Virus record (IMG/VR): IMGVR_UViG_3300047174_000201
Location: 1-29,828 of that record
Length of the DNA: 29,828 bases
Direction: 5' to 3' (one strand)
Source of the DNA: a virus
The notes under the pieces are model-generated. The model was not told the DNA's origin and ran no database searches. It worked only from the letters and a program-made list of their open reading frames with translations. Positions 5,690-29,094 of the stretch are shown here, piece by piece. The translations under genes and the position numbers were made by a program. The first letter of the stretch is position 1. Each line of letters starts with the position of its first letter.

Positions 5690-6061
5690 ATGTTTTTTGG
5701 TTCGTTTGAAAGTAAGAAAGATATCTGTGAGCAGTTTGGTATCCCTGATTTTGAGGGGACCGTGTTGTTTGCCGTATATGACAATGAAGATTATGAAGGC
5801 TCTGCCGAAGTGATCTTCGTCCATAATGGCAAAATTTACATGGCTTCTGGTTCTCATTGTTCCTGCTACGGTTTGGAAAATCAATGGGAACCTATTGAAA
5901 TGCCGATTGATGGGCTTCGGCGCATCATCGAACAGGGAAGTGGACTGATCGCGCGTTATGGAAAGAACCTCTCCGAGGGTCTTGACATGATTAACATTTT
6001 AAACCTTGAAGGCGCGTCTTCGGATAACGTCTACATTGCTTTAAAATTAGCCTTTGGGTAA
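5690..6061 (+). CDS. Hypothetical early phage protein with SHCSCYG motif
   Basis: 123 aa. A central motif, GSHCSCYGLENQWEP, with two Cys and a His, belongs as far as I recall to a widespread uncharacterised family of small tailed-phage proteins; I know no function for it. The start has a strong ribosome site (GAGGAGAAGG). It has its own operator-flanked promoter, a 100-base leader with a strong hairpin, and a terminator two bases after the stop. It is therefore an isolated, separately regulated transcription unit placed just before the late genes for the Usg-like protein and large terminase. Confidence 0.8.
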   Translation: MFFGSFESKKDICEQFGIPDFEGTVLFAVYDNEDYEGSAEVIFVHNGKIYMASGSHCSCYGLENQWEPIEMPIDGLRRIIEQGSGLIARYGKNLSEGLDMINILNLEGASSDNVYIALKLAFG

Positions 6062-6062
6062 T

Positions 6063-6098
6063 CAAAAGCCGTTGGGGAAACCTGACGGCTTTTGTTTT
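6063..6098 (+). terminator. Rho-independent terminator after the 5690 gene
   Basis: CAAAAGCCGT (6063-6072) pairs with ACGGCTTTTG (6085-6094), followed by TTTT. The next late promoter begins six bases later, so the early unit is insulated from the late one. Confidence 0.8.
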
Positions 6099-6103
6099 AT
6101 GCG

Positions 6104-6111
6104 GCTAAATA
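6104..6111 (+). promoter_or_regulatory. T4-type late promoter (GCTAAATA)
   Basis: GCTAAATA lies 29 bases before the ATG at 6141 and immediately after a terminator. The same octamer recurs at 12642 and 19984. Confidence 0.7.
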
Positions 6112-6140
6112 CCAGCAAACCTTTTGCTGGAGAGCACACA

Positions 6141-6416
6141 ATGACCGATCCCGATTTTGAGAAGATGCTGTTCAAGGGCTATTCGCTCGTGACCATCAAC
6201 GTTATCTATTTCTTGCCCGATCATCGTTCTCTAGTGAATGAATTTATGTGGCAGACTTGTGATCTTTCTCCAAAATATCCCCGCGTAAAAAAGTTTTTGG
6301 ATTTCTGGCAGCGTGAAATTGATGCTGTAATTAAGGAAGTTCAACTGTCCGACAGTATCGGTTTGAAGCCTCGTTATTTCCGCAAAGTTGAAGAAATTAC
6401 AGGACTACTTCACTAG
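6141..6416 (+). CDS. Usg-family protein
   Basis: 91 aa. The ATG at 6141 is chosen because GGAGAG lies just upstream and the late promoter at 6104 would fall inside any longer reading frame. The sequence follows the Usg family of alphaproteobacteria nearly end to end: a GYxLxTxxVIYxLPDH start, then EFMWQTCDLSPKYPRVKKF and LDFWQREIDAVIKEV. In bacterial genomes usg usually lies in the tryptophan biosynthesis cluster; its biochemical role is not established. Its presence in a phage suggests transfer from a host and supports an alphaproteobacterial host. It sits between an early terminator and the large terminase, probably on the same late transcript. Confidence 0.75.
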   Translation: MTDPDFEKMLFKGYSLVTINVIYFLPDHRSLVNEFMWQTCDLSPKYPRVKKFLDFWQREIDAVIKEVQLSDSIGLKPRYFRKVEEITGLLH

Positions 6417-6440: not shown

Positions 6441-6484
6441 CTATGTAGAGTATCCATCTCGGCTTGCCGAGATACAAAGAAAAC

Positions 6485-9064
6485 ATGGCTAAAGACAATT
6501 CTAATCTCAAAATTAAACCACCATATTCGAAGACAGTATTCAAAAATGAAGACGAAGTTGCCGATCTTCTACAGTGTATAGACGATCCACTTTTCTTCAT
6601 GAAACGCTTCATGAAGATTCAGCACCCGATGAAAGGTGCTCTTCCGTTTGAACCTTACCCATTCCAGCTTCGAATAATTAAGGCGTTTCACGAGAATAGG
6701 TTCTCCATTGCTCTAACCGCGAGACAGCTCGGTAAAGCTCTTGATTTAAAAACACCTATTCCTACACCTAATGGTTGGACAACTATGGGTGAAGTTAAGG
6801 TTGGTGATTATGTTTTGGATGAAAAGGGCAAGCCCGTCCGTGTGAATTTTGTTACTGATCCTATGTTTGGGCATAAAGTATATAATGTAGAATTCGATAC
6901 AGGCGAAATTATAAAAGCTGATGCTGAACATCTTTGGGTCGTTGGTGCATCACATTATCGAGGCAAAAAAAAGCAGCTTTCTACAGAAGAATTGATAAAA
7001 GAAATTACTTCAGCGGCAAATAGAAAAGGCAGTGTTTTTATTAATTCTACTCAGCCATTGCTTCTTGATGAAATAGATTTACCCATAAATCCGTATCTTT
7101 TAGGTGTATGGCTAGGTGATGGATATTCCGCCGGAGGGAGAATATGCGGTCACAGAGATGATATGGAGCAGATTTCTTTTAATCTGATTGCATGTGGTGA
7201 AACGTTATTTGAGACAAAATATGATTCTCGAAATAATGTTGCAATGCGAACCGTAGTGGGCCTCGTAAAAAAAATTAAGGCTTCCGGTCTAATTAATAAT
7301 AAGCACATACCTGTAGAATATTTAAGAGCGTCATATGATCAACGTTTAGCATTATTATCTGGTCTTATGGATACAGATGGATATTGCGATCCTAATGGTG
7401 GCTGTGAGTTCTATAATAAAAATACTAAACTAATTACTCAAGTTTCTGAACTTTTAGCAACTTTGGGTATAAAATCAAGAGACCATATTAAAATTATTAA
7501 TGGCGAACGGTATCATACGCTAAGATTTGCAACAACTATTCCTGTTTTCAGATTAGAACGAAAGTTACAACGACAAAAAGTAAGCACATTTGGACATCCA
7601 AAAATAACGCGACATTACATTAGGTCTATAACAGAAACAGAATCCGTTCCTGTAAAATGTATTCGTGTTGAAAATGACAGTCATTTGTTTTTATGTGGCA
7701 AATCTATGATTCCTACGCACAATACCACTTGTGCGGCTGGATATCTTTTATGGAAGGCGATGTTTACGGCCGACACTACTATTTTGGTAACAGCTAATAA
7801 ACTTTCCCAAGCATTGGAAATTATGGATAGAATTCGTTTTGCATACGAAAATATTCCAGATCATATTCGTGCTGGTATTACAGAATATAATAAAGGTACC
7901 GTTGCTTTTGATAATGGTTCCAAAATAGTTGCTCGTGCAACGTCAACTGACGCTGGTCGTGGTCTTTCAATCACATTACTGTATTGTGACGAATTTGCGT
8001 TCGTGCCTCCGAATAAGGCAAAAGATTTTTGGACTTCAATTCAGCCAGTTCTATCTACGGGTGGATCGTGTATTATTACCTCAACTCCAAAATCTGACGA
8101 AGATCAGTTCGCTCAGATTTGGCGCGCTGCAATAGATAATGTTGATCAATATGGTAATTTTAGAAAAGACCATTTGGGTAAAAATGGTTTTTACGCTGTA
8201 AAAGTTCCTTGGAGCGAACATCCCGAACGCGATGAAGCTTGGGCAGCACCCTTTCGTGAGAGCTTAGGCGAAGCTCGTTTCCGTCAAGAATTTGAATGTG
8301 ATTTCGTCACCGACGATGAAACACTTATCAATCCTCTTACCCTTAGTCAAATGAAGGGAATAAATCCAGATTTCTACACAGGTAATGTGCGTTGGTATAT
8401 GGACCCGATCCCAAATAAAACTTACCTTGTAAGTCTTGATCCATCTCTTGGAACGGGTAGAGATTATGCTGCAATTCAAGTCTTTCAATTGCCCGAAATG
8501 ATTCAGGTAGCTGAATGGCAGCATAATAATACAGCACCTCGCGGGCAAGTAAGTCAGTTGATGAAAATCCTGATGTTTATCGAGCAAACAATGCGCGACG
8601 ATCCTCGTCAGATGGGTGAACCAGAAATATTTTGGACTGTTGAAAACAACACTATCGGTGAAGCTATTTTACAAATTATTGAAGATACCGGTGAAGAACG
8701 TTTCCCCGGAATTTTCGTTTCTGAAAAAAAGAGAAAAGGTCAAACGCGCCGTTTCCGTAAGGGTCTTAACACGGATAATAAAAAGAAGTTATCCGCTTGT
8801 GCTCGCGCAAAGAGTTTGATCGAGTCTGGACGGATGCTCATCAACAGTGATCAGTTGATCAAAGAACTTAAAATGTTTGTCGCGGTCGAAACAACCTTCA
8901 AGGCTAAACCCGGTGCTCACGACGATCTGGTTATGGCAATGCTGCTTGCTGTAAGAATGCTTGATACCGTTCTATTATGGTCCAATTCGGTCGGGGACCT
9001 GAAAGAACATATTGATGATGATGAATTATATGAAGAAATAGAAGGAATGCCGGTAGTAATTTAA
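6485..9064 (+). CDS. Terminase large subunit (gp17-like) containing an intein
   Basis: The 859-aa precursor becomes a 530-aa protein after splicing; T4 gp17 has 610 residues. This ATPase-nuclease packages phage DNA into the prohead. The Walker A motif is reconstituted only after intein removal: TARQLGK joined to TTCAAG, matching T4 SRQLGKTT. Walker B is LLYCDEF (D502, E503). The nuclease domain shows SLDPSLGTGRDY (D652) and HDDLVMAM (D813, D814), like the T4 acidic triad. The long N-terminal region of T4 gp17 is shortened. An in-frame TTG at 6464 would add seven residues and better fits the usual late-promoter spacing; neither start has a strong ribosome site. Inactive until spliced, the motor depends on correct splicing. 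Confidence 0.95.
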   Translation: MAKDNSNLKIKPPYSKTVFKNEDEVADLLQCIDDPLFFMKRFMKIQHPMKGALPFEPYPFQLRIIKAFHENRFSIALTARQLGKALDLKTPIPTPNGWTTMGEVKVGDYVLDEKGKPVRVNFVTDPMFGHKVYNVEFDTGEIIKADAEHLWVVGASHYRGKKKQLSTEELIKEITSAANRKGSVFINSTQPLLLDEIDLPINPYLLGVWLGDGYSAGGRICGHRDDMEQISFNLIACGETLFETKYDSRNNVAMRTVVGLVKKIKASGLINNKHIPVEYLRASYDQRLALLSGLMDTDGYCDPNGGCEFYNKNTKLITQVSELLATLGIKSRDHIKIINGERYHTLRFATTIPVFRLERKLQRQKVSTFGHPKITRHYIRSITETESVPVKCIRVENDSHLFLCGKSMIPTHNTTCAAGYLLWKAMFTADTTILVTANKLSQALEIMDRIRFAYENIPDHIRAGITEYNKGTVAFDNGSKIVARATSTDAGRGLSITLLYCDEFAFVPPNKAKDFWTSIQPVLSTGGSCIITSTPKSDEDQFAQIWRAAIDNVDQYGNFRKDHLGKNGFYAVKVPWSEHPERDEAWAAPFRESLGEARFRQEFECDFVTDDETLINPLTLSQMKGINPDFYTGNVRWYMDPIPNKTYLVSLDPSLGTGRDYAAIQVFQLPEMIQVAEWQHNNTAPRGQVSQLMKILMFIEQTMRDDPRQMGEPEIFWTVENNTIGEAILQIIEDTGEERFPGIFVSEKKRKGQTRRFRKGLNTDNKKKLSACARAKSLIESGRMLINSDQLIKELKMFVAVETTFKAKPGAHDDLVMAMLLAVRMLDTVLLWSNSVGDLKEHIDDDELYEEIEGMPVVI
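6737..7723 (+). mobile_element. Intein with LAGLIDADG homing endonuclease inside the terminase Walker A
   Basis: 329 aa, residues 85-413 of the precursor. The N-terminal block starts with Ala instead of Cys/Ser (ALDLKTPIPTPNGW, then GEVKVGDYVLDEKGKPV). Block B has AEHLW with the conserved His, and the C-terminal end is SMIPTHN followed by Thr as +1 residue. Ala1 inteins are known to splice by direct attack of the +1 nucleophile. Two LAGLIDADG motifs are visible: LLGVWLGDG (205-213) and LLSGLMDTDG (290-299), so the homing endonuclease looks intact. The insertion lies between Lys and Thr of the P-loop, where non-splicing is lethal for the protein. The DNA is visibly more AT-rich than the flanking exteins, consistent with separate origin. 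Confidence 0.93.
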
Positions 9065-29023: not shown

Positions 29024-29094
29024 TGATCATGGTCGGATTCGAACCGACATCCAATGGTTTTTAGACCCTTGCTCGTCCGTTGAGCTTCATGACC
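29024..29094 (-). tRNA. tRNA-like cloverleaf, anticodon uncertain
   Basis: On the reverse strand the acceptor arms GGTCATG and CATGATC pair over seven bases with one wobble. The D-arm is GCTC-AACGGAC-GAGC, the T-arm GTCGG-TTCGAAT-CCGAC is perfect, and the discriminator is A; total length is 71 bases with no encoded CCA. The anticodon arm is poor: AGGGT/CCATT pairs badly in the standard frame, which would give a CTAAAAA loop with anticodon AAA. A six-base loop with mismatched longer stem fits as well. It may be a degenerate or modified tRNA, or a tRNA-like domain of a larger RNA. Confidence 0.6.

Follow-up and report, generated by a model that had tools for sequence, protein, structure and literature searches.

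The terminase gene and its insert

The window, i.e. the whole stretch of viral DNA analysed here (a virus record of 29,828 bases), carries a large terminase in a single open frame (6464-9064, 866 aa when read from TTG 6464). Translation more probably starts at ATG 6485, in the same frame, as related proteins open with MSKD or MAKS. Within this frame, two exteins flank an insert with the features of an intein, the Lys and Thr codons of the Walker A motif (6734-6736 and 7724-7726) lying on either side of it. The features, all on the plus strand, are as follows.

6485..9064 (stop included), plus strand: intein-containing large terminase (T4 gp17-type), precursor of about 859 aa from ATG 6485
6485..6736, plus strand: N-extein, 84 aa, ending in TARQLGK (Walker A through Lys)
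6737..7723, plus strand: intein, 329 aa (987 nt), Ala1 to Asn329, assigned to class 3 by its WCT residues, with LAGLIDADG endonuclease domain
6929..6937, plus strand: block B with His65 (B:10) and Trp67 (B:12), class 3 signature
7097..7123, plus strand: LAGLIDADG motif 1, LLGVWLGDG, acidic residue Asp128
7355..7381, plus strand: LAGLIDADG motif 2, LSGLMDTDG, acidic residue Asp214
7658..7660, plus strand: Cys308 (F:4) in VKCIRV, presumed first nucleophile, role by homology
7694..7696, plus strand: Cys320, second cysteine of blocks F-G, twelve residues past Cys308
7715..7723, plus strand: block G with Thr327 (G:5), His328 (G:6) and Asn329 (G:7)
7724..9061, plus strand: C-extein, 446 aa, beginning with Thr+1 (Walker A Thr), with the remaining ATPase and the RNaseH-like nuclease

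The exteins matched Pfam models Terminase_6N (8.4e-13) and Terminase_6C (1.4e-8), and the gene also matched PHROG terminase families. It thus combines the ATPase domain, the nuclease domain and the Walker A motif of T4-type large terminases (Terminase_6), and its spliced product would read TARQLGKTT at Walker A. A Usg-like protein is encoded immediately upstream (6054-6413, PF06233, E 1.8e-25), and relatives of it also occurred in L035, L038, L047 and L111. A tRNA gene lies on the minus strand at 29024-29094 (Rfam tRNA, 47 bits).

Read in frame, the insert begins with ALDLKT after TARQLGK and ends with PTHN before TT, in agreement with the first-pass annotation, which had described an intein starting with Ala, ending with His-Asn before Thr and carrying two intact-looking LAGLIDADG motifs; both acidic residues (D128 and D214) are present. 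Pfam model LAGLIDADG_3 matched the insert (8.6e-10); Pfam Intein_splicing and the NCBIfam intein termini models did not, and its identification as a Hint domain rests on phmmer matches and the predicted fold. For the latter, a model was built from 12 sequences for the intein flanked by eight extein residues at either end (mean pLDDT 88.8, pTM 0.88). PI-SceI structures ranked first in Foldseek. VIA-align gave Z scores of about 28 over 323-324 residues with PI-SceI precursors; with class 3 mini-inteins 6riy, 6bs8 and 6rix, Z was 20.5-20.9 at 45% identity across 127-130 residues. The predicted architecture is therefore like that of PI-SceI (Hint with inserted LAGLIDADG), the splicing part being of class 3. 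Two motifs with acidic residues inside a Hint domain are the structural hallmark of a LAGLIDADG homing endonuclease.

An RNA intron was rejected since the insert is in frame and carries Hint blocks; no Rfam group I or group II match was found in the window, L006, L013, L015 or L017. The intein is poorer in GC than the C-extein (35.6% vs 41.3%; GC3 0.216 vs 0.327). This is compatible with recent arrival but was discarded as proof of it, other ORFs of the window ranging from GC3 0.20 to 0.63.

Splicing class and state of the intein

Class 3 inteins are defined by a WCT triplet (PMC5222942 and PMC7891396). The nearest solved relatives of the insert were class 3 DnaB inteins (6rix, phmmer E 5.7e-28; 6bs8, 2.5e-26; also 6riy), and it grouped with class 3 inteins by both sequence and fold. 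Position 1 is neither Ser, Cys nor Thr, and this Ala1 sets the intein apart from class 1. Trp67 (B:12), Cys308 (F:4) and Thr327 (G:5) form the complete triplet, in the same alignment columns as in class 3 relatives and 6rix/6bs8, and the +1 residue is Thr, one of the two (Ser or Thr) expected in this class. As judged from sequence and model, the insert is very probably a bifunctional, mobile class 3 intein inside the terminase P-loop.

Splicing would be expected, by analogy, to follow the order Cys308, Thr+1, Asn329. The terminase would be made as an inactive precursor with a split P-loop, in which the intein would fold as a Hint domain with its inserted endonuclease, as the predicted structure indicates. 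From what is established for proven class 3 inteins, Cys308 would attack the Lys-Ala1 bond, giving a branched thioester that carries the N-extein; this chain would then move from Cys308 to Thr+1, Asn329 would cyclise with the help of His328 to release the intein, and an acyl shift would restore Lys-Thr as a normal Walker A.

The first-pass annotation had concluded from Ala1 that the intein must splice by direct attack, which overlooked class 3, the class indicated by the WCT signature and by the nearest solved relatives. Direct attack of Thr+1 on the Lys-Ala1 bond is the class 2 route, and a first residue without nucleophile, such as Ala1, is indeed what class 2 inteins display. We nevertheless regard this route as very improbable: class 2 inteins are without the block F Cys signature of class 3, whereas Cys308, Trp67 and Thr327 are all present here, the nearest relatives belong to class 3, and the +1 residue is Thr, not Cys. 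Moreover, mutation of Cys F:4 blocked splicing in three class 3 inteins, and the +1 residue could not replace it, even when a natural Cys+1, so that the branch order is fixed (PMC5222942). The class decides which residue should be mutated, i.e. Cys308 and not Thr+1 alone.

Among the loci retrieved, 113 matched the intein; 111 of these were covered over at least 80%, and 98 were distinct relatives. Cys308, Lys189, Thr327, His328 and Asn329 were kept in 98/98 of these, as were His65 and Trp67, whose counts are inflated since the patterns of one relative scan covered the His and Trp of block B together with the second LAGLIDADG motif. Cys308 and Thr327 lay outside the patterns of that scan; another search used one window pattern that included Cys308. 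The +1 residue was Thr in 61/98 and Ser in 37/98, and the residue preceding the intein was Lys in 89/98. Several records (hits H22, H27 and H31, from Escherichia phages) have an intein-bearing terminase annotated as replicative DNA helicase (DnaB), for which the DnaB-like intein is probably responsible.

Conserved inactivating changes of the endonuclease in relatives, which the first-pass annotation had named as evidence against its reading, were not observed: the first acidic Asp was kept in 94 and the second in 95 of the 98 distinct relatives, the latter count being inflated by the scan pattern. Some members of the family have nonetheless a decaying endonuclease, to judge from the changed LAGLIDADG residues of L118, L127, L167 and L185. 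With such relatives in mind, and given that the record, at 29.8 kb, is a fragment of uncertain fitness, the window intein could itself be a decayed one that no longer splices or homes and was kept only because the contig comes from a phage that is defective or a rare variant. This appears most unlikely for a frame of 866 codons without stop or frameshift, in which neither the splicing residues nor the two acidic ones are altered and the fold is predicted confidently across the whole intein; besides, a P-loop insert that failed to splice would abolish packaging.

That packaging waits on splicing, as the first-pass annotation proposed, is a fair deduction because Walker A is discontinuous until the intein is removed, and PMC5050341 argues likewise for TerL inteins in general. 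The further suggestion that splicing might act as a timing step found no backing, as nothing pointed to regulation. A redox switch is described for M. smegmatis DnaBi1, also of class 3, in which a disulfide linking Cys48 to the catalytic Cys halts splicing reversibly (PMC6195587). The window intein has Val48, although position 48 is Cys in 76/98 relatives, and redox timing through Cys48 is thereby ruled out. A thiol route by which the precursor would be held until a signal, e.g. redox, frees packaging would use Cys308 and the neighbouring Cys320. The latter is Cys in 61/98 relatives, with a marked bias towards those having an RQxGK P-loop (T4-type TerL, 55/67, against 6/31 of the others), and it may lie close to Cys308 on a neighbouring strand, since predicted strands 309-311 and 317-320 would bring the two together. 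Yet, in addition to the missing known partner, the closest relatives have no intein at all, so that a timing role cannot be essential in this clade, and regulated timing is considered very unlikely here.

Occupancy of the K/T bond among related terminases

Viral contigs were scanned with the C-extein, and the best 80 of 411 relatives were kept. In 77 of these 80, ...GK directly preceded the C-extein with nothing inserted, including the seven closest (L031-L037, 73-89% C-extein identity), where the gap between the predicted ends of N- and C-extein was exactly 0 nt. The intein junctions are thus exact, as empty alleles join K to T directly, and the first-pass annotation was right to place the insertion precisely at the Lys/Thr junction of Walker A. 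That annotation had also suggested looking for intein-free alleles and for the same insertion site in related terminases; besides the empty loci, Klebsiella phages RaK2 and fENko-Kae01 were found to be filled at K/T. Three of the seven closest relatives lie on contigs of 415, 578 and 608 kb, which makes it most likely that the window derives from a larger genome, that of a huge phage. Described phages with an intein-free terminase of this family are Sinorhizobium phage Phosso, the Pseudomonas Paride/PA5oct group and Pectobacterium phage CBB (empty site read in L004, L009 and L010). A scan of bacterial genomes with the C-extein returned one locus, L111, with an empty site, in a Candidatus Zixiibacteriota MAG.

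The extein tree comprised 88 rows (67 empty, 18 class 3 and 3 split; identical rows merged, L023 and L024 dropped). The window terminase grouped with three empty alleles (support 95) and then with L034, also empty (support 98). Presence of class 3 inteins required at least four changes on this tree, which does not separate gain from exact loss in sister lineages. Long branches among distant class 3 rows make its deep part unreliable, the placement of the window being unaffected. The nearest intein-bearing relative, L046, is 79% identical to the window in the C-extein and 42% in the intein, whereas cyanophage B23 is 32% identical in the C-extein and 52% in the intein; a sister relationship of the window and L046 inteins was rejected (AU p 0.013). 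Intein and extein histories thus appear to disagree, and separate acquisition is the simplest reading. Recent mobility of the window intein is supported at the sequence level by the position of its terminase within a group of empty alleles and by the rejected sister relationship with the L046 intein. In homing, the endonuclease would cut the conserved P-loop codons of terminase genes that lack the intein in co-infecting phages, and repair would copy the intein into the cut gene.

A co-conversion tract around the site was considered and not retained. Amino-acid changes found only in the window numbered 25 vs 9 near the site and 21 vs 28 far from it (Fisher p 0.007, with regions picked post hoc); related difference-count tests of the flank signal gave p 0.12 and 0.051, sliding DNA identity displayed no clear edge, and the near-site tree did not reject the usual position of the window (AU p 0.27). 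As a footprint of co-conversion, these changes are suggestive.

Other related terminases carried split elements, either at the same bond or elsewhere in the gene.

L038:595-2775: split intein at TerL K/T, Cys1; C-extein 67% identical to the window
L047:234-3807: split intein at TerL K/T, Cys1; C-extein 59% identical to the window
L202:1790-4613: N-part, nuclease-like frame and C-part at TerL K/T
L200:1393-5270: C-part and nuclease-like frame
L017:2383-6320, L046:424-4598 and L051:2136-4595: fractured-gene split intein at the Walker B Cys, e.g. LLY/C.../CDEF
L013:2725-6117 and L015:1740-5330: fractured-gene split intein after EFE, EFE/C...SHN/CEFLG

In Agrobacterium phage Atu_ph07 (L006:1450-3641), two adjacent genes annotated as terminase together encode a single terminase, whose two parts are linked through a split intein at K/T, with Ser1 in the first gene and ...ILSHN/TT in the second. 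L047 displayed a 417-codon open frame between its halves, whose best PHROG match is of unknown function (3.3e-17), with weaker PHROG homing-endonuclease and HNH matches and an REase-like Pfam match below cut-off. A scan for split elements returned six loci: L199 is L038 again, while L200 and L201 scored equally, as did L202 and L203, and one of each pair (L200 and L202) was read. Similarity to the VidaL split intein was weak (E 0.0027 for L047 and 0.25 for L038). No Hint domain was called confidently by Pfam in the split allele, and its model was of low confidence (pLDDT 66.8, pTM 0.45); the top structural matches were nevertheless inteins (Z about 9 over 53-61 residues), which lends support to a Hint fold. 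An unusual hydrophobic or amphipathic stretch occurred at the split point of the L038, L047, L202 and L200 elements.

The second split inteins, located elsewhere in TerL, occurred in genes whose P-loop was empty or filled by a class 3 intein, so that some terminases have two inteins; GIY-YIG or other frames lay between their halves. A split intein related to those of TerL was also observed at the GK/T P-loop of an ATPase gene (L204:874-4691), which we take to be ClpB-like. This suggests that the split-intein family also targets P-loops generally.

As read from these sequences, one and the same TerL bond may, within one phage clade, be empty, hold a class 3 intein or hold a split intein that is class 1-like and unrelated to it. 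Tentatively, and with slightly less than even confidence, we propose that the K-T bond is contested by class 3 inteins bringing their own LAGLIDADG domain and by VidaL-like split class 1 inteins with a separate nuclease, both systems aiming at the same P-loop codons and occupation by one destroying the target of its rival. If true, terminase alleles would alternate among the empty, the class 3 and the split class 1 state. A search of titles and abstract openings, with subscription papers mostly outside its reach, returned no report that a single TerL bond is held in turn by class 3 inteins and by split class 1 ones.

Comparison with known systems

A terminase P-loop intein is of a known kind, jumbo phages included. 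Hint and LAGLIDADG domains were previously noted in the large terminases of phages RaK2 and K64-1, to which the available portion of PMC5259590 assigned neither a splicing class nor a P-loop position. Our comparison showed that RaK2 and fENko-Kae01 share the K/T site of the window (TARQMGK/A...PTHN/TT), the class 3 residues and the LAGLIDADG motifs, at 41-44% identity in the intein and 44-45% in the C-extein. In mycobacteriophages, TerL1-a inteins sit between the P-loop Lys and Thr, a classic insertion (PMC5050341), in a Terminase_1-type TerL and not in the T4 type of the window; the same paper ties TerL1-c and -e, not -a, to class 3.

Among solved structures, M. smegmatis DnaBi1 (6bs8) and the M. 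chimaera intein (6rix/6riy) have the WCT triplet, His65 and Trp67 under the same numbering, Ala1 and a THN end, and DnaBi1 is also a P-loop insertion. These class 3 DnaB inteins are, however, short splicing domains without endonuclease and reside in a helicase, whereas the window intein has an endonuclease and resides in a terminase; it also has Val48 where DnaBi1 has its redox partner Cys48. PI-SceI (the yeast VMA intein) is the best match in fold over the whole length, with Hint and endonuclease, but it is longer (matched chains of 405-448 residues) and only about 16% identical. It is a class 1 intein with Cys1.

VidaL-like split inteins occupy the same TerL K/T bond in L038, L047, Atu_ph07 and L202 and are unrelated to the window intein: they are encoded by two genes, begin with Cys1 or Ser1, are devoid of LAGLIDADG motifs and are sometimes accompanied by a separate nuclease-like ORF, whereas the window intein is contiguous. 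The allele series at this one bond, with C-exteins 59-89% identical to the window, would allow tests of homing, of competition between inteins and of the cost to the packaging motor.
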